DNA of 64,000 nucleotides from Akkermansia sp. (GTDB lineage: Bacteria; Verrucomicrobiota; Verrucomicrobiia; Verrucomicrobiales; Akkermansiaceae), in the NCBI GenBank assembly GCA_017521405.1, contig JAFXCP010000023.1:1-64000 (forward strand), given 5' to 3'. The notes under the pieces are model-generated. The model was not told the DNA's origin. It made no database searches and saw nothing but the letters and a program-made list of their open reading frames with translations. The translations under genes and the position numbers were made by a program. This document shows, one piece after another, positions 6,724 through 61,739 of the stretch. Within the stretch, counting starts at the first letter, position 1; every line of letters begins with the position of its first letter.

Positions 6724-7698
6724 ATGCGTTTTCTTACAGGACTCCAACCAAGCGGGCAACTCCACATAGGCAACTATTTCGGCGCCATTGAACCGGCCGT
6801 GCGCCTTCAGGAAAAGGGCGAGGGCTTTTACTTTATTGCCAACTACCATGCGATGACCACCATGGAGAGTGCGGAAGCGCTGCGCACCAACACGAGAGGC
6901 TTAGCCGTGGATTTCCTCGCCTGTGGTTTGGACCCGGAAAAATCTGTATTTTTTGCCCAATCCGCCGTACCGGAGGTGAATGAGCTGGCATGGATTCTCT
7001 CCACCGTATGCCCGATGGGTCTGTTGGAGCGTTGCCATTCATATAAAGAAAAGGTGGCCAAGGGAATAGCCTCCAACCACGCTTTGTTTGCCTACCCGGC
7101 GCTCATGGCAGCAGATATTTTGCTGTACGATGCCGATGCAGTCCCCGTGGGCAAGGACCAGAAACAGCATTTGGAAGTAACCAGAGATTTGGCCGGCAAA
7201 ATGAACGATACCTTTGGTGCAGATTTGCTGAAACTGCCGGAGCCCATCATCAACGAAAGCACAGCCGTGGTTCCCGGGCTGGATGGTCAAAAGATGAGTA
7301 AGAGCTACGGCAATACGCTTCCCATCTTCGGGGAGGAAAAAGCACTCCGTAAGCTGATTAACAAAAAAGTAGTAACAGATGCCACTCCGCTGGAAGCACC
7401 CAAGCCCACGGAGGGTTCCATTATACTGGCACTCTATAAACTTTTTGCCACCGGGGAGCAATATAATTCCATGGTGGCTGCACACCATGCAGGTGGTGTG
7501 GGCTATGGCCAATTCAAGAAGGATTTGTTTGAATGCTACTGGGAATATTTCCGTGCAGCCCGGGAACGACGGGATTGGATTCTTGCCCATCCCGAATACG
7601 TGGACGATGTGTTGAACACCGGTGCCACACGCGCCAGAGAGGAAGCCGGCAAGGTGCTTTCCCGAGTTCGCACGGCCGTGGGGCTGGGCTGGGTATAA
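6724..7698 (+). CDS. trpS: Tryptophanyl-tRNA synthetase
   Basis: This enzyme charges tRNA-Trp with tryptophan in a class I aminoacyl-tRNA synthetase reaction. The 324 residues match the compact bacterial enzyme. The Rossmann-fold signature appears as GLQPSGQLHIGNYFGAI near residue 6 (HIGN for HIGH), and the second signature as GLDGQKMSKSYGN near residue 187 (KMSKS). Conserved MAADILLYDADAVPVGKDQKQHLEVTRDLA lies between them and forms the Trp/ATP pocket. It follows a thioredoxin-like lipoprotein gene and ends in a strong bidirectional terminator. Confidence 0.97.
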   Translation: MRFLTGLQPSGQLHIGNYFGAIEPAVRLQEKGEGFYFIANYHAMTTMESAEALRTNTRGLAVDFLACGLDPEKSVFFAQSAVPEVNELAWILSTVCPMGLLERCHSYKEKVAKGIASNHALFAYPALMAADILLYDADAVPVGKDQKQHLEVTRDLAGKMNDTFGADLLKLPEPIINESTAVVPGLDGQKMSKSYGNTLPIFGEEKALRKLINKKVVTDATPLEAPKPTEGSIILALYKLFATGEQYNSMVAAHHAGGVGYGQFKKDLFECYWEYFRAARERRDWILAHPEYVDDVLNTGATRAREEAGKVLSRVRTAVGLGWV

Positions 7699-7721
7699 AT
7701 CCTTTACTATTCCTCTTTAAC

Positions 7722-7756
7722 AAAAAGCCTGCCTTCTTTGCGAGGCAGGCTTTTTT
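7722..7756. terminator. Bidirectional intrinsic terminator between trpS and rsmB
   Basis: The hairpin arms AAAAAGCCTGCC and GGCAGGCTTTTT carry a T-tract on both strands and separate two convergent transcription units. Confidence 0.9.
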
Positions 7757-7759
7757 ATA

Positions 7760-9004
7760 TCACCGGCAGCGGCGGAGCAAAGCGGCATAAGCTCCATCCG
7801 CCTCTTCTCTATGAGGAAGAGCCAGATAATCCCGTTCCAAGGAGAACTCCGGGTGCCGGGCAAGGAAAGAATCCACCACATCCCTATCCTCCTCCCTATC
7901 GATGGAGCAAGTGGAATAAACTAAGCGTCCCCCGGCACGCACCGCGCGACATGCACTCTCCAGAATTGCTCTTTGCAGGGTTGCCAGTCGGGAAATCTCC
8001 TCCGCAGAAAGGCGCCAACGTGCATCCACGCGCCGCTGCAACACACCGGAATTGGAGCAAGGCACATCCAAAAGAACCGCATCAAACTTCCCTACCCATT
8101 TCTCCGGGCAAGGATTTTGCCAATCATGCAGCTGGACCAATGCATTGGGGGCTCCGGCACGTGCCAGATTTTGGCGCAGGGAAACTAAACGATGCGGCTC
8201 TGCATCCGTGGCTACCAGTTCTAAATCGCCACCGGCAGCGGCTAGCATAGCCGCAGATTTTCCTCCCGGTGCTGCACAGGCATCCAGAATACGCTCCCCG
8301 GCTTGCGGTGCCAGCATCTGTACGCAATAGCGGGTGGAAGGATCGGCAATATATAACTGTCCCGCCTTAAGCTCCGGCAAAGGTAAGGAGCCCTTCAGCC
8401 GGAACCAGCCGGGAAGCTCGGGAAGCGGCTCCCAATCTGCCGGAATAAGGGTGGGAGGATTCAGAGGATTCACACGTGCATACACCGGAGGAGTGCCGAT
8501 ATTCCACGCCAGCATGGAAAGTGTTTCCTGTTCTCCGAACTCTTGCATCCACCGGCGAACCAACCATGAAGGAGTGGAGAAGCAAACGGAAGGAGAAAGT
8601 GTATGGCGTCCCGTTTCAAACTCCTGCCTCCTCCGAATAGCATTCCGCAGTACGCCATTCACCAGACCTTTAGCTCTTGCGGGAGCCAGCCGCACAGTCT
8701 CGCTCACGGCGGCATGTTCAGCCTGTTTCAAGATGAATAACTGGCAAAGGCCCAGCAAAACAAGCCAGCGAAGTTTTTCCTCCAAAGCCCCGGGGCGCAG
8801 CTGCAAGCGCAAGTAATCCAGCCATGCCATATGGCGCAGCGTATCGTACAACAGAGCTTGGAGCAAGGCTCTATCTGCCCTGCTCAATGCATGAGCCGCA
8901 GACTCTCGGGATACAAGGGTTTCTGCAAAGATTCCGCCTTTACCCCAGCGGCATAGGCTATTCCACGCAAGAAGGCGCACATTCGGAGAAGCGGGGCTAC
9001 TCAT
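7760..9004 (-). CDS. rsmB: 16S rRNA (cytosine-967-C5)-methyltransferase
   Basis: RsmB transfers a methyl group from SAM to C5 of a cytosine in 16S rRNA. The N-terminal 125 residues form a NusB-like helical RNA-binding domain (DRALLQALLYDTLRHMAWLD; VNGVLRNAIRRR). The C-terminal Rossmann methyltransferase has the SAM loop DACAAPGGKSAAMLA. It also has LLDVPCSNSGVLQRR, which holds one catalytic Cys region, and YSTCSIDREE, which holds the second conserved Cys. The 414-residue length fits. Its start overlaps the stop of the inositol monophosphatase gene by an ATGA junction, so the two are translationally coupled. It is the last gene of a six-gene minus-strand operon. Confidence 0.93.
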   Translation of the reverse strand: MSSPASPNVRLLAWNSLCRWGKGGIFAETLVSRESAAHALSRADRALLQALLYDTLRHMAWLDYLRLQLRPGALEEKLRWLVLLGLCQLFILKQAEHAAVSETVRLAPARAKGLVNGVLRNAIRRRQEFETGRHTLSPSVCFSTPSWLVRRWMQEFGEQETLSMLAWNIGTPPVYARVNPLNPPTLIPADWEPLPELPGWFRLKGSLPLPELKAGQLYIADPSTRYCVQMLAPQAGERILDACAAPGGKSAAMLAAAGGDLELVATDAEPHRLVSLRQNLARAGAPNALVQLHDWQNPCPEKWVGKFDAVLLDVPCSNSGVLQRRVDARWRLSAEEISRLATLQRAILESACRAVRAGGRLVYSTCSIDREEDRDVVDSFLARHPEFSLERDYLALPHREEADGAYAALLRRCR

Positions 9005-53747: not shown

Positions 53748-54962
53748 TCAAAAATCGAAACGAACAGCGGACGAAAACTGCCATCCGGTAAAGCCTTTTT
53801 CACCCTTGGCATCCGCCCCCTCGGAATTAAGGTATTCTGCACCAAACATCAATTTGAGCATATGCGGATTGGAGGGGAACACATAGTAATTGGCACCAAG
53901 ATATACCCCCTGCAACAAATCGCTCGTGCCGGAATAGGTAGAATTCGTACTGTAATAGCGGCTATCGGATTTCACGGCATTGCTACCGCTGGCTAACTGG
54001 TAGCGAAGCACGCCTTCCCAATGCGGAGAGAAACGATAGGAGGGCATAAGCACTAAGCCATACACATTTTCTGCGTCCTTAGCACTACTGTACACATTGA
54101 ACCCACCCAGCACCTCCGCCAGGAAGCTCAATTTATCCTGCTTAAGTTCCCAGCTTAAAGCCACCACATCCTGCGCCCCGGGGCCTGCATATTCCGAACC
54201 ACTGTTTACGGCACCATCCTTGCGGAAGCTGTGCATATAATCTAACTGCAACCGGCTATTGCCACCGATGGCTCGGGAAACACTCGCCCCGAAAGTCACA
54301 TTATCATCGCTATTAAACGAGGGTTCCAGCCATGCTGTATCGCGCTGTCCATTCAACCACAGCCCGGCATTCCAGCTCCATTCGGATTTCTGATTCGCAT
54401 TTGCCACAGAAAGACCGTAGAGCTTCTCCGCCTTCAGTTGATTCACCAGCATCGAGCGTTCCATGGTGATTATCTTGGCACTCGAGGTGCGGTATTCTGC
54501 CATGTAGGCCGGCTTATGCTTACCTACCGTCAATGTAATCGGATTCAGAGTTGTGGAAAGGGTCAATTCATCCAGCGTCCCCTCGCTGCGAGAGCGACTC
54601 CACTCACCATCGCCGTACTTATTCCGACCATCCAAGCCACCTATGTTCCATACCCCTTTCAGGGTGATTGCGTGAAACATTTTTGCCTGAGCACCTAAAC
54701 GGAAGCGGCGCCATTCATTATTATCATGACGATTACCCTTCACTCTCGCACTGCCGCCGGCCGGCTCCAAATACCCCCATTGGTACTGTCCCCTCATTTT
54801 AAGCGTCAATTCCTGCAAATAAGGATTCTCTGCCTGCTCTCGCTTCGCATCAAACACCTTGAACGCATCCTTCATGTGTGTTCCGAAATCGAAATCGGCA
54901 GCTTGGGTAACAGAAACAGCTCCCATGGTCAAAGCCAGTGCTACGATGGTATCTTTTTTCAT
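53748..54962 (-). CDS. Phosphate-selective-type outer-membrane porin (OprO/OprP-like)
   Basis: A 404-residue protein with a signal peptide (MKKDTIVALALTMGAVSVTQA) and alternating polar and hydrophobic strands throughout. It ends in FSSAVRFDF, whose terminal Phe is typical of outer-membrane beta-barrels. MRGQYQWGYLEPAGG, MFHAITLKGVWNIGG and MYLGANYYVFPSNPHMLKLMFGAEYLNS-type segments resemble OprO/OprP porins. The gene is followed by pstS on the same strand, which supports phosphate passage. Upstream are two inverted repeats built on GTGTC/GACAC. Confidence 0.75.
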   Translation of the reverse strand: MKKDTIVALALTMGAVSVTQAADFDFGTHMKDAFKVFDAKREQAENPYLQELTLKMRGQYQWGYLEPAGGSARVKGNRHDNNEWRRFRLGAQAKMFHAITLKGVWNIGGLDGRNKYGDGEWSRSRSEGTLDELTLSTTLNPITLTVGKHKPAYMAEYRTSSAKIITMERSMLVNQLKAEKLYGLSVANANQKSEWSWNAGLWLNGQRDTAWLEPSFNSDDNVTFGASVSRAIGGNSRLQLDYMHSFRKDGAVNSGSEYAGPGAQDVVALSWELKQDKLSFLAEVLGGFNVYSSAKDAENVYGLVLMPSYRFSPHWEGVLRYQLASGSNAVKSDSRYYSTNSTYSGTSDLLQGVYLGANYYVFPSNPHMLKLMFGAEYLNSEGADAKGEKGFTGWQFSSAVRFDF

Positions 54963-54979
54963 ATCTCTATTGTTTTGTT

Positions 54980-55006
54980 AAGTGTCGCCTGTTTCGGTCG
55001 ACACTT
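54980..55006. promoter_or_regulatory. Inverted repeat AAGTGTCG/CGACACTT upstream of the porin gene
   Basis: Perfect 8-bp arms with an 11-nt spacer, 18 nt before the porin ATG. It would form a leader stem-loop or an operator. Confidence 0.45.
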
Positions 55007-55069
55007 TCAGTAAACCGCGAACCTGCCTTTTTTTCAAGCTCCCGATGGTGAATGAAACGCCACACAAAA

Positions 55070-55087
55070 TGTGTCCCTTTTGACACA
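55070..55087. promoter_or_regulatory. Inverted repeat TGTGTC/GACACA upstream of the porin gene
   Basis: Perfect 6-bp arms with a 6-bp spacer, sharing the GTGTC/GACAC core with the repeat at 54980-55006. A second binding site for the same regulator is possible. Apart from these repeats and the RADAR terminator, 54963-55309 holds nothing I can assign. Confidence 0.4.
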
Positions 55088-55123
55088 ATAACTCTGTTCC
55101 CCCATCAAAAAATACTATATCGT

Positions 55124-55164
55124 AAAAGCCTGTATTCCGCTCCGCACGGAATACAGGCTTTTTT
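55124..55164 (-). terminator. Intrinsic terminator downstream of the RADAR operon
   Basis: A perfect 16-bp stem (AAAAGCCTGTATTCCG with its complement) surrounds a 7-nt loop. T-tracts flank both sides. It lies about 145 nt past the rdrB stop. Confidence 0.85.
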
Positions 55165-55309
55165 GGGGGAGGGGCACTGTCCAAGGTAATATCATTCAAT
55201 AGCGCTGCTTCAATTTCAAACAGATGAGGGGAGTATACAGCAGGCTGAGAAATCCATAAAACACTCTCGCTGGCATAGATATTTGTATAGAATGAGGTGT
55301 TTCATGATT

Positions 55310-58009
55310 TTATGCGAATGTAGTGAAATTACCGGAAAGAGGGCGGAAAGCATAAAGCTGCCCACACTCGTTAATTTGAATGAGCTTATTGAGAGCCTCC
55401 TGAGAATTCAGCCCACGCTTACAAAGAGAAACAAACAAATGATAAAATTCAGCTTTAATATCGGTGGCAAATACCCCCGGGTCATCCGAGCCTAAAACGA
55501 TAGGAAGATGGCTATCGTTTTCCGGCGTATTGATACCTAACCATCGGAGGGAATGGTGCTGCCCCATTTCCTTATACTGGCTAATCCGCAAATTACTGGT
55601 AGGCAGGGTTTCTATCACCACGCCTCGATCAACAAGGTAACGCATGACCAACTGTTGAATGGCAATAAGCTCCTCCGGAGAGAAATACCCCGTAGGCACT
55701 TCTATGCGGCTTTCGCTGCGTTCCCATACCATCTTGTTCCTATTCCAGTCGATTACTAATTCAAGCACCTCCAGGGACTCCTCACAAAATGCTCTATAGA
55801 CACGAATTCTCTCATCATCACAAGATTCCTCACCATCCGCAAATGATTTTACCTCCTCGGCTATTTGTTGCATGGTAGGAATCACATTGCACCTATTCAT
55901 GAGATTTTGCTGAGCCTTTTTATAAATGTGTAAAAATTCACGAGGTGAGATACTGCGAAGATCAAAGACTCGCTTCAGGATATAAGGCGAAAGGTGTGGT
56001 TTTTGGAACACGGCGTATCCCTGTTCTCGTATATCATAATTCAACTTTTGTACCAGGGCTTGCATGGAACGACCGCTTTGCAAAATATGCCAGGCAAAAA
56101 TGAGATCCTGAAGCCACTCCCCGCGTGTCGGTGCTACTTGGGAAGGCATGGTTCTTATCCATAATACAGGGTCTACCCCCAACGCTGTGGCATGTCCAAT
56201 GCGATCCCCATTGCGGTATTCCAACATCTCTGTTGTCTCGTATACAACCCGAATACCACTAATGAGGTGGTAAAAATCCTCCCCAGCATGATAGGTTACA
56301 TGGGGAATATTCAATTGATAACGAGCCTTTCTGTATGCAGGAGCAAAAATATCCGGGGGGGCATCCATCTCATCGGCAGCGGCATCAATACCGCGCACCC
56401 ATTGGCTGAGTTTAGGGTAGTTCAGAAATAGCTTATGCAGTACAATAAGATTGTTATCATATCCTTCTCGAGCCTCACGATACCGTATTCTGTTTGCGCC
56501 GTTTTCCTTACTATGTTCCCATTCCCTTTTTATAAAATGAAACACAATTACCGGGCGTACCAATCGTACACTTTCAAACTCAAGCTGATTTAATTTGCGG
56601 AGAATTTCTTCCAATGTGCCGCCCTGATTTTTTTTCGCATCATTCACATGGTAAAGGGCATCCTCCCTTCGCTTTTCTCCGGCTCCGAGTTTGTGTTGAT
56701 AGACGTATTCTAAGTACCCGGCAAGTATATCCTTTAGCCTTAATAGTGTGCTATCGTAATCCCCTTTTGGAGCTATACGTAGCTCTGCATAATTCGTCAC
56801 GCTATTGCGTCCTTTTCCATGCATCCGTTCAAATACCCGATAATAGTAATCCGAACGATATACCAAGGCTTTTGCTATATTGGAATATTTTTGGAATTGC
56901 TTAAATCCATAGAAATTATCGCGTTGAACACATTGTGAAAAGAACTCATTGAATAACAATAGGTAGAGATGAAACAAGCGCTCCACATTTTCATCCGGGT
57001 GAATGGATAGAAGGTTAATAACCTTGCGCATCCACCTCATTTCATTAACCACATTCGGCGGACTTTCCGCAAATGTCGGGTGAGTACTCTTCGGCGCTCC
57101 GCTTGTGGCCTCAACATCTTCATCGGTCCACTCTATAGGCGCCTTGTCACACAGAGTGGCTAACCTACTTCGTGTCGGTATCATCTTCCCTTCGTAGGGT
57201 ATCATCCCTTCACTAAAAGCACCCTCTTTCGTTTCACAATCGCCGGCATAGCATATTAGCAAATAACGTACCCTCTTTGCCACTTGCATGTGGTCGTACA
57301 TGACATCCGGAGTAAGGTCGATATGGATTTCCCTGTATAATTCCACCGCCGATGGGTTTCTCTCAAACTCCTCATGCTGAATCGCCCATTCTATTTCCGA
57401 GTAATTCAGGGCGTTAAGCCAACATTCTTCCGCCGCAGCGCAAAGATTGACATGGATATGAGAATCATTCAAGCCGTGCTGGTTAATGTACGTTTCCACG
57501 CTCTCATCATACGGATAAAGAGTCAGCAGGTTGTATTTTATACTCTCCATGGGATCAATATCCCGTTCATTCTTCATGCGCCAGTATGCAAGAGCCTGTA
57601 TCGGCAATGAGGAAATTCGACTAAGCATATTCTGCCACCAGCCAAACTTCTCCGCTTTCACATGCAACTCCTGATGGCGGACCTCCAAATACTCATCAGC
57701 CAAGCATTGGAGAGTCGCCAGCACAATGCTACAACTCACAGATTGCTGCATCCGCATGTTTACAAACTTCCTGCCATAGCGGTTTGATGACTTTTGCTGC
57801 ACATAATCATGCATGAAACACTCCCAGCGATGTCGGAATACATGATCCGGGCAAGTCGGATTCCAGCGGTGAAAATCCACATACGCATATTCTCGCAACA
57901 GGTTTCGGCCATTGTGGAGAAATGGCGTATTCAACGGCTGTTTTAACATCCAGAACAGCAGATTTTCATTTGCCAACACGTAAGCTGGTATAGTAGAAAC
58001 CTCCGGCAT
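55310..58009 (-). CDS. rdrB: RADAR adenosine deaminase RdrB
   Basis: An 899-residue protein of the adenosine deaminase superfamily and the effector of the RADAR antiphage system. The deaminase metal and catalytic motifs are all intact: SHIHVN with the two His zinc ligands (His184, His186), TYHAGED (His574, catalytic Glu577) and GDRIGHATALG (His606). PTSNLR near 803 and GSDDPGVFAT (Asp842/Asp843) complete the set. The length is far beyond metabolic adenosine deaminases (about 350) and matches RdrB, which has large insertions and assembles into a dodecameric shell. In the known system it deaminates adenosine in RNA or nucleotides during infection. It follows rdrA by 63 nt. The A+T content is visibly higher than in neighbouring housekeeping genes. 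Confidence 0.92.
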   Translation of the reverse strand: MPEVSTIPAYVLANENLLFWMLKQPLNTPFLHNGRNLLREYAYVDFHRWNPTCPDHVFRHRWECFMHDYVQQKSSNRYGRKFVNMRMQQSVSCSIVLATLQCLADEYLEVRHQELHVKAEKFGWWQNMLSRISSLPIQALAYWRMKNERDIDPMESIKYNLLTLYPYDESVETYINQHGLNDSHIHVNLCAAAEECWLNALNYSEIEWAIQHEEFERNPSAVELYREIHIDLTPDVMYDHMQVAKRVRYLLICYAGDCETKEGAFSEGMIPYEGKMIPTRSRLATLCDKAPIEWTDEDVEATSGAPKSTHPTFAESPPNVVNEMRWMRKVINLLSIHPDENVERLFHLYLLLFNEFFSQCVQRDNFYGFKQFQKYSNIAKALVYRSDYYYRVFERMHGKGRNSVTNYAELRIAPKGDYDSTLLRLKDILAGYLEYVYQHKLGAGEKRREDALYHVNDAKKNQGGTLEEILRKLNQLEFESVRLVRPVIVFHFIKREWEHSKENGANRIRYREAREGYDNNLIVLHKLFLNYPKLSQWVRGIDAAADEMDAPPDIFAPAYRKARYQLNIPHVTYHAGEDFYHLISGIRVVYETTEMLEYRNGDRIGHATALGVDPVLWIRTMPSQVAPTRGEWLQDLIFAWHILQSGRSMQALVQKLNYDIREQGYAVFQKPHLSPYILKRVFDLRSISPREFLHIYKKAQQNLMNRCNVIPTMQQIAEEVKSFADGEESCDDERIRVYRAFCEESLEVLELVIDWNRNKMVWERSESRIEVPTGYFSPEELIAIQQLVMRYLVDRGVVIETLPTSNLRISQYKEMGQHHSLRWLGINTPENDSHLPIVLGSDDPGVFATDIKAEFYHLFVSLCKRGLNSQEALNKLIQINECGQLYAFRPLSGNFTTFA

Positions 58010-58047
58010 TGGGATACAAGTTGATGAATGTTAATTTTCTCCGGCAT

Positions 58048-58068
58048 GGGTGTACAAGAAATACACCC
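58048..58068 (-). other. Stem-loop between rdrA and rdrB
   Basis: Perfect 7-bp arms GGGTGTA and TACACCC around CAAGAAA, starting 5 nt after the rdrA stop codon. No U-tract follows, so it is not a classical terminator. It may protect the rdrA message end or set the rdrA:rdrB ratio. Confidence 0.5.
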
Positions 58069-58072
58069 GCTC

Positions 58073-60772
58073 TCAACGTTGAGCTGGCGAATTTCCTTGC
58101 TTCTTACTCCGCGCTTTTTTTTGTTTATTCACGCACAATGCCTCCACAGCATCTTCCAATGACTTCGTCAGGGGGAAACTACCAATTAAGCCGAGAAAAA
58201 CATCCGACATTCTATGTTTCTCTTCTGACGTCAAACCAAAGGGTATGCAGAAATGGTGCCGGAAATAGCTAATTGTTTCCTTAAATTTATCTAATAGTTC
58301 CTTGTCCGCAACAACTCTCTCAGCTTTTAGTTCGGTATCTTGCACCCCTCCGACTTGACTAGTCGTCCCGGAATTCCCTTTAGAATTATCTGTTAGCTCT
58401 ACCACCTTCATCGTATGGCTTATTCGACGCAAAGCATAGTAGAAATTGGCCCAAATTTCCCCCATCACCTGCGGAGACAAATCCCACACTCCCTTTGAAT
58501 CTATATTTTTCTCCCAATAACTAACCTCGTCTCTATACCAATTCAAAATATTCTCCGCTATCTTCCCTATTCCCTCCCTATATTGATTCGGCATTGTCGT
58601 CTTACTTGGCTCTTTTTCTTCCCATAAAGAAATCGACTCGGTATTATATGTTTTAACAGGGATTCTGTCTATTTGCCATTCCGGCTTACCGCATGTTTTG
58701 ATAGGAAAATAACTTTCAATAATGCCGATGATGGATTGAATGGCAGCTTGTTTTTTCTTGGCTTTCTCGTTCTCATTCTTAGCTTGCGCATGATTCTGAC
58801 ACGCCTGAAGACAGCGATGTATGAACGCCAAATAACTGAATACAGAAATGAAATAGCTATTATCTCGCTCGTGAGAGCGGCTCATGCAAACCAAAAGAGC
58901 AATTCCCTGGCGGATGTCAGCTTCCGAGGGATTACCTTTTTTCGGAAAGGCTTTTTTTAAAATTACAGAATTTATTTTTTTGATGATTACTTTATATCGA
59001 AGCCTCAATATACCGGAATGTAAGCCCTCAAGCCCGGTATCTGCACACCATATCATATTCGCGTGTCGAGCCCATCGGGAAGCACTATACCAACTGCCGA
59101 CATGGAGATAACTTTCAAATTTCTTACGCAGGTCCGAAAGTGTTTTCAATGTGCGATCTATCGTGGAGCCGGTGTACTGCTCCAAGGCCTTGGCATACAA
59201 TGCCACCGTTGCCGGACCAAAAAGAAGATAGGAAATAAACCCCCGCAAATCTTTAACCCGCTCCTTAAACGAAACAGCCAGCAACATGGTGAGGAACTTA
59301 TCCTCGCTGGTAATCCCCATATCCCCGGAAAGAAAATAACCATGCTCCAAATCGTCCATTTTTTGGCAGTGTTTGAGCATAGAGGCATAGAATATCTTGC
59401 CTTCATCCGTATTAAGATTATCGAACTCGTAATAGGCAGCCGAAAGCTCGTCCTTAAGAACATGCTCAAGAGATATTCTCACCACATATTCCGTTTGGAT
59501 TCTATCATCAGTCAGAATCGAGGTCTTTTCCTGTTTTTTTTCTTCGGCTTCTATTTCTTTTTTCAATATTTTCAGTACCTCTTTTTTATGCCAAAAATGG
59601 ATAATTTGAAGTATGCTTCTCAGCGGCAAGCGCATGAACAAATCCGTATACGGTTTTATTTCGACAGGATTGTTACTAATTGCGTAGTAAAATGCCTTGT
59701 TAATGATTTTTTCTAATTCCAAAATAGTAACGGTATTCTCCTCCGTCATTCTCAGATACACAGTAATAGGAATCCGCTTGCGCGCGAGAGTGAGCAAATC
59801 ACACAGCTCTCGCTGATGAGATATCGGAAAGAGTTTCATGAGGTATTGCCCCGCATGGGAAATAACCGATTTCATGCGGAATTCCTTACCATTTTCATCC
59901 TGTTGATGATATTGGCTGTTAAATTCCGAAAAGTATTTTTCGCGCACACGTTCGATATTGATGGACTTATCCCCTGTTACCAGCACAATCACGCGAGGAT
60001 GTGAGATGTACAGGCGAAGGTTCTCCAAAACCTTGCTGCACTGGGCCGCATTTGTATCCGCATCGTCCACGGCTATAATGTAAGCCTTAATTTGATTTAT
60101 ATGGCAAAGTTTGTCTACTATTTTTGCATAAATCCTTCGGATTTCTTCATCCATGTCCGGACTATCCCTGCGGAGCATCGATGCGTTATGCTCGCTAAGA
60201 TCGCTTAATGGAGCTTTGCCGCGTGAGAGGCGTGCAATGCCCAAATCCAGTCTCTGCATCAGGCTGAGACAGGCGGCCCTCTCAAAATCAAATCTTGGTC
60301 GAGAAGAATCCTGCATCCGTTGGCTGCTTTCCAACTCACTCTTTAATGCAGCCACTACATTCAGGAAAAAGTAATTATCGTCTCCACACGATGCGGAGGG
60401 ATCATACCAGCATAATAACTTGCAGGGCTTATCACCACATTGTTTTGCAGGTCTTTCCAGTTTTGTTACAAGATTCCGCAAAAATGTGGATTTACCACTG
60501 CCTCGACTTCCCGTAATAAGGTAGTTCTTCCCTCGGCTTGCAGATAAAGTATAGTAATCCCGCCCATAATCCACATTCTCAACAGGTAACAGACTTGCTA
60601 GAATTTCATCGCTAAATTCGTTTAATAGTTGCTGATGAATATAGGCCTCTGTGTCGTTCTTGCTATTAAACGTGTCTGAGGGATTTATATAGACATCAAA
60701 CGGTTTATTTTTTATGTAACTCATGGCAGTGGAGAGAAAGGTGTAATTCTGTAAGTTATACAGTATCGTCAT
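58073..60772 (-). CDS. rdrA: RADAR ATPase RdrA
   Basis: An 899-residue P-loop ATPase. Walker A reads TGSRGSGKSTFLRN (residues 87-100) and Walker B AYIIAVDDADTN (230-241). After it come sensor-like residues (PRVIVLVTGD) and a long helical C-terminal half with Lys/Glu-rich stretches. In RADAR, RdrA forms a seven-fold ring that docks on the RdrB dodecamer and is needed for RNA editing on phage infection. The pairing with an 899-residue adenosine deaminase downstream identifies it. The start has GAGGGG five bases before the ATG. A second ATG at 60724 (MSYIKNKPFD) is possible. The C-terminus ends in a basic KKARSKKQG stretch. Confidence 0.9.
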   Translation of the reverse strand: MTILYNLQNYTFLSTAMSYIKNKPFDVYINPSDTFNSKNDTEAYIHQQLLNEFSDEILASLLPVENVDYGRDYYTLSASRGKNYLITGSRGSGKSTFLRNLVTKLERPAKQCGDKPCKLLCWYDPSASCGDDNYFFLNVVAALKSELESSQRMQDSSRPRFDFERAACLSLMQRLDLGIARLSRGKAPLSDLSEHNASMLRRDSPDMDEEIRRIYAKIVDKLCHINQIKAYIIAVDDADTNAAQCSKVLENLRLYISHPRVIVLVTGDKSINIERVREKYFSEFNSQYHQQDENGKEFRMKSVISHAGQYLMKLFPISHQRELCDLLTLARKRIPITVYLRMTEENTVTILELEKIINKAFYYAISNNPVEIKPYTDLFMRLPLRSILQIIHFWHKKEVLKILKKEIEAEEKKQEKTSILTDDRIQTEYVVRISLEHVLKDELSAAYYEFDNLNTDEGKIFYASMLKHCQKMDDLEHGYFLSGDMGITSEDKFLTMLLAVSFKERVKDLRGFISYLLFGPATVALYAKALEQYTGSTIDRTLKTLSDLRKKFESYLHVGSWYSASRWARHANMIWCADTGLEGLHSGILRLRYKVIIKKINSVILKKAFPKKGNPSEADIRQGIALLVCMSRSHERDNSYFISVFSYLAFIHRCLQACQNHAQAKNENEKAKKKQAAIQSIIGIIESYFPIKTCGKPEWQIDRIPVKTYNTESISLWEEKEPSKTTMPNQYREGIGKIAENILNWYRDEVSYWEKNIDSKGVWDLSPQVMGEIWANFYYALRRISHTMKVVELTDNSKGNSGTTSQVGGVQDTELKAERVVADKELLDKFKETISYFRHHFCIPFGLTSEEKHRMSDVFLGLIGSFPLTKSLEDAVEALCVNKQKKARSKKQGNSPAQR

Positions 60773-60869
60773 ACTATCCCCTCAATGGCATGTAAGTCAA
60801 GAAAAAAACCGTCATATGTATTACTTTTAAAAATTTAGGAATCTCATTTGGTGAAAAAGCGGAGCAAAT

Positions 60870-60878
60870 AGTATAGCA
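60870..60878 (-). promoter_or_regulatory. Extended -10 promoter candidate of the RADAR operon
   Basis: On the minus strand TGCTATACT provides an extended -10 element (TGn plus TATACT), about 98 nt upstream of rdrA. A second option, TTGACT-N18-TAGTAT, overlaps the rdrA start codon itself and would require the start at 60724. The remaining 60773-61124 shows no gene. Confidence 0.4.
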
Positions 60879-61124
60879 TGAGGATGCTTGCACACGGCAG
60901 GCATCGCGGTATTTAGCCGGAAGCAACAGAGGAGCGAATCTACTCTAAGCACAGTAAACACGCATCACTCCGCAAAAACAGCACCGGTCGTTTTATTACA
61001 CAGCTCGGGAACACTTCCGGTAGCCGATATACATAGGCTGTGTTGCCTTTAGCGCTCATGCCCTTCTAAAGAGAAATTACAAAATCCCTTACCGATATTC
61101 CCATACATCGGGGATGGATGTAGG

Positions 61125-61739
61125 TTATTCCGGGTTAGCCCCCATAACAAGGCGGTAGAAATTGCAACCGATGAAATTGCCCAGAACTATGCTTACATAG
61201 AACAGAAGAATGCTGCCAAAATGCTCCGCCCAGAATGAGCAGGGAACGGCAAGGTAGTAAAAGGCATCCGCTATGCAGTGGGGAAAGCCGCATACAATAA
61301 AAAGGGGAACGCCAAAGAGCAAAGGAAGATTGTTCCCCTTGCGGGCAAAGGTAACGGCGGTAGTCATAATGAATCCGCAAGCGATGGAAAGTAAGCCTCC
61401 GTGCAGGGGACCCAGCGCAAGGCGAGCAGCCAAAAAGCTCCGGGCATTTTCCTGAATGGGCATGGGGGAAAGGCGAGCTAGCAGAGCTACAAGACCACAG
61501 CCCGCAATGTTCCCCAGAAGGATGACGAAGAGATAAGCCCATTCTCCTTTGCGAATAAATCCTGCTGTGCCGGTGTAGAGAAGTAGTTTGTAGCTGACCA
61601 CGGTAAGCAAGGCAAAGGCAAAGAGGACACTGCCGACAATATCGCGAGTGGCCATGTAGCCGAATCCGGCAATTCCCACGCACACCCCGGACATGACGGC
61701 GGATTTAACAATGCTGCACCAATCCCTAGCCTCGTTCAT
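61125..61739 (-). CDS. Formate/nitrite transporter family channel
   Basis: A 204-residue membrane protein, shorter than typical FNT channels (about 270-290), with about six hydrophobic helices. The FNT landmarks are LLTVVSYKLLLYTGTAGFI (the first pore re-entrant segment), the LLGNIAGCGLVAL glycine-rich helix and GFPHCIADAFYYL, with the central histidine of the FNT pore. A near symmetrical VLGNFIGCNFYRLVMG follows. It would pass formate, nitrite or similar small anions. It lies upstream of rdrA in the same direction with a 350-nt gap. A TAGAAT lies 10 nt before the ATG. Confidence 0.82.
   Translation of the reverse strand: MNEARDWCSIVKSAVMSGVCVGIAGFGYMATRDIVGSVLFAFALLTVVSYKLLLYTGTAGFIRKGEWAYLFVILLGNIAGCGLVALLARLSPMPIQENARSFLAARLALGPLHGGLLSIACGFIMTTAVTFARKGNNLPLLFGVPLFIVCGFPHCIADAFYYLAVPCSFWAEHFGSILLFYVSIVLGNFIGCNFYRLVMGANPE

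Follow-up and report, generated by a model that had tools for sequence, protein, structure and literature searches.

Locus and Genes

The stretch analyzed here (the window) is the first 64,000 nt of contig JAFXCP010000023.1 in Akkermansia sp. assembly GCA_017521405.1, and it carries on its minus strand two genes, rdrA and rdrB, of the RADAR anti-phage system. The assembly totals 1.99 Mb in 38 contigs and is 99.67% complete; the window forms the beginning of its contig 17. An initial annotation of the sequence had described two adjacent 899-residue genes, and both open reading frames (ORFs) were found: rdrA is followed head to tail by rdrB, each begins with ATG and each runs for 899 codons. The motifs it had quoted (TGSRGSGKST, AYIIAVDDADTN, SHIHVN, HAGED, DRIGHA and GSDDP) are all present in the translations. 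A tandem of rdrA and rdrB on a single strand, as found here, is a feature by which RADAR membership is recognized.

58073..60772, minus strand: rdrA, RADAR AAA+ ATPase, 899 aa
58010..58072, minus strand: spacer between rdrA and rdrB, 63 nt, from sequence
55310..58009, minus strand: rdrB, RADAR adenosine deaminase, 899 aa

Identity of the Two Proteins

Searches of PDB sequences with phmmer gave 8fnw as the best match of RdrB (E = 4.7e-106) and 8fnt as that of RdrA (E = 5.3e-20); each search returned two sequences at E <=0.01, and every one came from RADAR entries. Predicted models of both proteins were confident, and comparison with solved structures, which the initial annotation had proposed as a check, gave matches over almost the whole length of each. 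The RdrB model aligned with 8hr7_M over 766 of 786 residues (root-mean-square deviation 2.6), as against ~310 residues for plain deaminases, and the window protein possesses the insertions around the deaminase core, which would form the shell. The RdrA model matched solved RdrA in fold over its whole length, C-terminal helical lobe included. The structure alignments drew on 60 of the 78 RdrB rows and 52 of the 71 RdrA rows available.

An alternative already raised in the initial annotation is that a metabolic adenosine or AMP deaminase lies by chance beside an unrelated STAND or AAA+ ATPase. Pfam points in that direction, as its sole match above the gathering score was A_deaminase at the RdrB C-terminus (E = 1.2e-9), while RdrA gave sub-threshold ATPase matches alone. 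However, the fold matches extend to the RdrB insertions and the RdrA C-terminal lobe, and an RdrA-type ORF was present in 75 of 80 related loci, in 74 of which it stood directly before rdrB on the same strand (of the five loci lacking it, L049, L064, and L095 begin at rdrB; the others are L098 and L112). A metabolic deaminase with a stray ATPase is ruled out by the whole-length fold and sequence matches, and we accord it next to no probability.

Profile searches, also proposed earlier, bore out the identification in rank but not in score. The RdrA and RdrB models of PADLOC and NCBIfam were top-ranked for the pair, but scores were weak, and the NCBIfam equivalog scores of RdrA (70.5 of 600; NF041743) and RdrB (130.3 of 800; NF041744) did not reach the cut-offs, which taken alone weighs against a RADAR assignment. 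For comparison, the RdrB of E. coli W284 matches the solved 8fnw across all 799 residues (1653 bits), and on the PADLOC RdrB model it obtained 90.0 bits, versus 91.4 for the window and 965 for the RdrB of Aliivibrio, annotated as RADAR. Similarly, a 753-aa part of Buttiauxella RdrB, the gene for which shares 90.6% DNA identity with W284 rdrB, reached only 110.9 of 800 on the NCBIfam RdrB model. Since E. coli-type RdrB scores equally low, the low NCBIfam scores reflect the range of the models, i.e., another branch, and not a protein outside RADAR. We do not assign the window pair to equivalogs NF041743 and NF041744, whose cut-offs, judging from these scores, delimit another branch and not RADAR as a whole. 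Scores under present RADAR models are weak both for the window's branch and for the E. coli RdrB of known structure, and surveys with strict cut-offs may undercount the branch. We class the locus as a complete, very divergent RADAR, a member of an already described system.

Relatives and Phylogeny

Relatives were gathered by an alignment-based scan of genome contigs, which confirmed 331, and the best 80 were kept, so that the sample leans to near kin; a contig scan with a single protein as query found no relative. The RdrB set of 81 rows consists of four named rows and 77 of the 80 loci (three with short frames were left out), and the RdrA set of 74 consists of four named rows and 70 loci with frames >740 aa. 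In a quick tree of the 81 RdrB rows, the window grouped with nine other Akkermansia rows (Shimodaira–Hasegawa-like approximate likelihood ratio test, SH-aLRT, 100), hereafter clade I, within a set of 36 rows (98) that includes E. coli RdrB. The Aliivibrio type was set apart by a very long branch; several long branches were flagged in a warning from the program. Distances of RdrA and RdrB correlated over the 74 systems (Spearman 0.77). Besides the window, clade I of the named collection holds eight loci of isolates called Lapin (L037–L044) and one from sheep rectum (L036). Lapin is French for rabbit, and the name alone suggests a rabbit source. In the window's nearest relative (L022), two paralogous genes at 1151–2899, one of them with DUF2971, directly precede rdrA; PADLOC assigned one of the two to the candidate defence family PDC-S31.

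Among known systems, E. coli RADAR (RdrA 8fnt and 8hr8; RdrB 8fnv, 8fnw, and 8hr7) resembles the window in its tandem rdrA-rdrB, its catalytic sites, both folds and its place in the 36-row branch. It differs in host phylum and in contact residues, the window RdrB is 100 aa longer, and identity between E. coli W284 and the window is about 32% for RdrB and 17% for RdrA. The NCBIfam type (Aliivibrio rdrA-rdrB; NF041743 and NF041744) shares the gene pair and the name, and the Aliivibrio pair matched one PADLOC RdrA and one RdrB model nearly full length, but its RdrB is 21% identical to that of the window and lies on its very long separate branch. In Cad1, the CARF-adenosine deaminase of type III CRISPR, a CARF sensor is fused to the enzyme, whereas the regulator in the window is a separate AAA+ protein. 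No CARF part was matched in window RdrB, where the PADLOC CARF_ADA model covers the deaminase end alone (485–571 of 605), and the listed Cad1 chains align with the RdrB model only from Cad1 residue 226 onward.

Conservation of the Active Sites

The zinc histidines (H152, H154, H498, and H530) and catalytic glutamate (E501) of E. coli RdrB have been described (PMC9994260). All five have counterparts in the window, as the initial annotation had maintained for the metal and catalytic residues, and the Walker A residues G93, K94, and S95 of RdrA are present. The positions, with their conservation among relatives, are as follows.

57452..57460, minus strand: RdrB zinc ligands H184 and H186, equivalent to E. 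coli H152 and H154; H in 81 of 81 RdrB rows
56279..56290, minus strand: RdrB H574 (zinc ligand) and E577 (catalytic), counterparts of E. coli H498 and E501; unchanged in all 81 rows
56192..56194, minus strand: RdrB zinc ligand H606, counterpart of E. coli H530; unchanged in all 81 rows
59588..60535, minus strand: RdrA AAA+ core, residues 80–395, with sensor 1 D268 and sensor 2 R385, aligned to E. coli RdrA
60482..60511, minus strand: RdrA Walker A, residues 88–97 (GSRGSGKSTF); G93 in 74 of 74 and K94 in 73 of 74 RdrA rows
60062..60067, minus strand: RdrA Walker B aspartates D236 and D237; both positions are D in all 74 rows
58118..58945, minus strand: RdrA C-terminal helical lobe, residues 610–885, the part that looks exchanged in relatives

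At sensor 1, the counterpart of E. coli RdrA D253, 70 of the 74 rows have D and 4 have N; at sensor 2, the counterpart of R377, all 74 have R.

Some observations weigh against an intact system. At the crown and three-fold contact positions defined in E. coli, RdrA has R165, A166, and L177 in place of K150, E151, and R162, and RdrB has P671, a gap and H672 in place of E595–E597. The ratio of nonsynonymous to synonymous substitution (dN/dS) is not computable for the window's own pair, since its synonymous sites are saturated. The unretained interface residues, together with rdrB remnants at two other Akkermansia loci, where the system was evidently lost, would suit a decayed or repurposed RADAR that no longer assembles. 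However, contact positions vary family-wide (K at 150 in 16 of 74 RdrA rows, E at 595 in 20 of 81 RdrB rows), and because of this wide variation the changed contacts neither support nor deny assembly. Considering also that both frames are open over 899 codons with all catalytic residues intact, that the models are confident, and that dN/dS is low in relatives, we regard decay as highly improbable.

A Standalone rdrA-rdrB Pair and Its Proposed Mechanism

The initial annotation had recognized a two-gene version devoid of SLATT (RdrC) or Csx27-like (RdrD) accessory genes, and this description held. The 5' neighbor of the pair encodes a Form_Nir_trans protein (61125–61739) and the 3' neighbor a Porin_O_P protein (53748–54962). 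ORFs of at least 25 aa overlapping the upstream gap (60773–61124) reached 54 aa, and those overlapping the downstream gap (54963–55309) reached 95 aa; by size and position, we judged none to be a gene. No Csx27- or SLATT-type gene adjoins rdrAB in either neighbor or either gap, and by its sequence the pair belongs to the standalone rdrAB subtype of RADAR.

The RADAR identity proposed in the initial annotation was thus upheld by sequence, predicted structure and phylogeny. What the locus itself displays is the gene order, intact catalytic sites, a fold match of both proteins and membership of the E. coli RADAR branch. We consider it very likely that this is a complete standalone RADAR of an Akkermansia species acting by the proposed mechanism, in which an RdrA AAA+ ring would dock by its crown on the RdrB deaminase shell. 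Upon infection, a phage cue, probably read by the RdrA C-terminal lobe, would switch the complex on, and activated RdrB would deaminate ATP and dATP to ITP and dITP, and phage replication would fail as a result. Assembly and ATP deamination are carried over by analogy from the published E. coli system; the window copy is presumably active, and the lobe presumably acts as its sensor.

The original RADAR proposal, as told in PMC7699616 and PMC9994260, was that the system acts mainly through A-to-I editing of RNA, and C. rodentium RADAR gave a weak A-to-G signal, at about 4% in ssrA (PMC9994260). In the same paper, however, E. coli RdrB deaminated ATP and dATP but not hairpin RNA, and >99% of adenosines were unedited. 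Since the window lies in the E. coli branch, editing as the main activity is a distinctly improbable account of it, and we retain nucleotide deamination as the likely mode of action.

Apparent Exchange of the RdrA C-Terminal Lobe

Compared with eight other Akkermansia clade I rows, the window showed 22–32% identity in the lobe, 39–45% in the ATPase core, and 47–55% in RdrB. Among these relatives, close RdrB proteins accompany distant RdrA proteins: L037 and L043 are 96.5% identical in RdrB (synonymous divergence, dS, 0.08) versus 68.3% in RdrA (dS 1.21), and L041 and L042 are 91.0% identical in RdrB (dS 0.217) versus 52.6% in RdrA (dS 1.43). The rdrB genes of L037 (5044–7815) and L043 (7807–10590), from bins of different samples, are DNA-identical over ~2 kb, roughly residues 100–775, which, while rdrA differs, points to recent exchange of rdrB too. 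The lobe pairs the loci in another way. Its nearest pairs are L037–L041 (51%), L038–L042 (48%), and L043–L044 (47%), whereas RdrB pairs L037 with L043 (97%) and L041 with L042 (91%). Approximately unbiased (AU) tests on the lobe rejected both L037+L043 (p = 8.7e-4) and L041+L042 (p = 1.5e-5), and RdrB supported both at 100/100. For the ATPase core, L041+L042 was supported at 100/100, L037+L043 was neutral (p = 0.36), and L037+L041 was rejected.

A comparable conflict was found in the E. coli type. Residues 1–330 of E. coli W284 RdrA group with E. coli MSI001, Edwardsiella, and Rosenbergiella (100/99), whereas the protein from residue 345 onward groups with Buttiauxella and Enterobacter (100/100). 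AU tests, from which E. coli 1303 was left out, rejected the former grouping for RdrA from 345 (p = 4.2e-6) and the latter for both RdrA 1–330 (p = 1.2e-4) and RdrB (p = 0.027), although RdrB supports the MSI001/Edwardsiella/Rosenbergiella grouping at just 77/77. At the DNA level, all 6 Akkermansia pairs and 5 of the 9 E. coli-type pairs lost the match, or showed it broken, within the 3' part of rdrA and regained it 0–12 nt ahead of the rdrB start; the first break fell 34–68% into rdrA, and short matching pieces persisted in some pairs.

These data could also mean that the lobe merely evolves faster than the rest of RdrA and was never exchanged. The lobe is the least conserved part, its comparable four-fold sites are few (4–15 per interval in places), support for its own pairings is 91–97 and was not starred by the program, and the 15 DNA-compared pairs share rows and are not independent. 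The other four of nine E. coli-type pairs align straight through rdrA-rdrB, and none of the window's own relatives is near enough to reveal a lobe exchange directly. However, the AU tests reveal tree conflict in both the Akkermansia and the E. coli-type lineage, and the DNA match recovers at nearly the same point, directly before rdrB, in the 11 broken pairs; we thus hold faster evolution by itself to be unlikely.

The RdrA C-terminal domain has been proposed as the phage sensor, and the limitations section of the same paper states that RADAR's phage cue is not known (PMC9994260). Exchange of the lobe while enzyme and motor are kept is what would be expected of a changing specificity domain, and it lends evolutionary support to the sensor proposal without proving it. 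A literature search returned nothing on RdrA lobe exchange among the matches listed (most subscription papers lie outside its coverage), and a keyword search of the main text of PMC9994260 gave no passage on RdrA exchange. Complete E. coli genomes W284 and MSI001 carry natural operons with similar RdrB and ATPase core but dissimilar lobes, which makes the sensing question testable.

Polysaccharide Genes Beside RADAR in Relatives

In all eight Lapin loci, rdrAB adjoins surface-polysaccharide-type genes on the same strand; the exceptions in clade I are the window and L036. GtrII and PgpA genes follow rdrB in L037, L038, L039, and L043, with glycosyltransferase genes immediately or shortly upstream of rdrA. 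In L041, HMGL-like and HAD genes precede the pair and AlgX- and MBOAT-type genes follow it, and L044 has a cytidylyltransferase gene before and a family 8 glycosyltransferase gene after. In L040 the contig ends within rdrA, and AlgX-type and acyltransferase genes follow rdrB. In L042 the three upstream genes, HMGL-like and HAD among them, are shared with L041 at 90–93% identity, but rdrB is followed by a KAP ATPase gene. The latter (L042, 10816–13539) encodes 908 aa with weak PADLOC matches to QatA and PDC-S20. This flank scan took the two nearest ORFs per side in Akkermansia and used 29 of 45 proteins, covering all eight Lapin loci and none of the other four. In controls from other bacteria, for which only the nearest ORF on each side was taken and 96 of 118 proteins were used, no family with at least two members was glycan-related among the first 25 of 111 families, the commonest having three members.

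We lean slightly toward a cassette model, in which the C-terminal part of RdrA serves for recognition and can be exchanged. Operons would retain RdrB together with the ATPase core and replace the 3' end of rdrA by drawing on a pool of types that are old and diverged, always with the same boundary at the start of rdrB, and an unchanged poison-making enzyme would thereby be directed at new phage cues. Many Akkermansia would do so beside surface-polysaccharide genes, so that phage-receptor variation and intracellular defence may travel together. Lobe exchange and polysaccharide setting, both seen in relatives, are the parts of specialist interest.

The rdrB remnants mentioned above are 3' ends at L033 (6946–7203) and L034 (6054–6314), with frames of 85 and 86 aa; both lie in loci of the same kinds, and in L033 a caspase-domain gene (7221–8006) occupies the slot. 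Judging from such loci, RADAR seems to be both gained and lost at this slot.

Distribution, Probable Acquisition and a Second RADAR

The Verrucomicrobiota-like host of the initial annotation can be sharpened to Akkermansia, and the same-genus carriers of the gene are likewise Akkermansia. Of 77 Akkermansia genomes, 11 contained full-length RdrB and 1 more a remnant alone, and in a class-wide sample of 384 genomes (171 genera) the 5 with a match all fell within the genus. RADAR is thus not rare in Akkermansia; the published count of 270 in about 38,000 genomes (PMC9994260) came from another survey method and affords a rough contrast. A literature search found nothing on RADAR phage defence in Akkermansia.

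The G+C contents of rdrA and rdrB (42.3% and 45.1%) are the lowest of 37 ORFs of at least 250 aa in the window (53.6% overall), and because of this the pair was probably acquired. No RADAR match was found among 50,697 phage records at E 1e-5, and 7 of 72,556 plasmid records matched, all at <60% identity. Among 12 stretches fetched we found no clean empty site, although these are draft assemblies and the junction may exist elsewhere. In five of the 12 (L118–L122), a porin 75–81% identical to that of the window has beside it, where the window has RADAR, an ORF that we take to be response-regulator-like. Six (L123–L128) carry a focA-type gene with varying neighbors, and L129 a porin of 49% identity.

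The same genome has a second RADAR pair (G000 contig 37, locus L021, 6026–11464; RdrB 814 aa, RdrA 995 aa), with the same rdrA-rdrB layout and intact deaminase residues, but only 29% (RdrB) and 17% (RdrA) identity with the window. It sits in a separate clade, Akkermansia clade II (SH-aLRT 100), which also includes further Akkermansia and a Clostridia bin and is joined to clade I at just 94. Genome G044 also has both clades; co-occurrence in these two genomes was not significant (hypergeometric P = 0.065). The L021 pair lies near class I tRNA synthetase and signal peptidase II genes.

Other Features of the Region

PADLOC was run on 10 other ORFs (5 in the window, 5 in the next 9 kb of the contig), and 3 matched, two to general ATPase models and one weakly to PDC-S07 (E = 6.1e-6). 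A repeat search located a candidate terminator:

55124..55162, minus strand: perfect 16-bp inverted repeat with a 7-nt loop, 147 nt beyond the rdrB stop; a possible terminator

The list of the terminator scan does not contain this repeat, and terminator-like sites in the region numbered 5 versus 5.3 in shuffles; promoter-like sites around the locus were not above shuffles either. No direct repeat of at least 14 nt was found within either gap, and repeats of the wider region were weak and chance-like. A 20-nt imperfect direct repeat (85%, spacing 38) at 58001–58058 straddles the rdrB start codon.

Regarding annotation elsewhere, complete E. coli genomes L116, L133, L134, and L135 have their RADAR genes labelled as archaeal ATPase, P-loop NTPase, adenosine deaminase, amidohydrolase or hypothetical, and in E. 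coli strain 1303 rdrB is annotated in two pieces and is probably broken.
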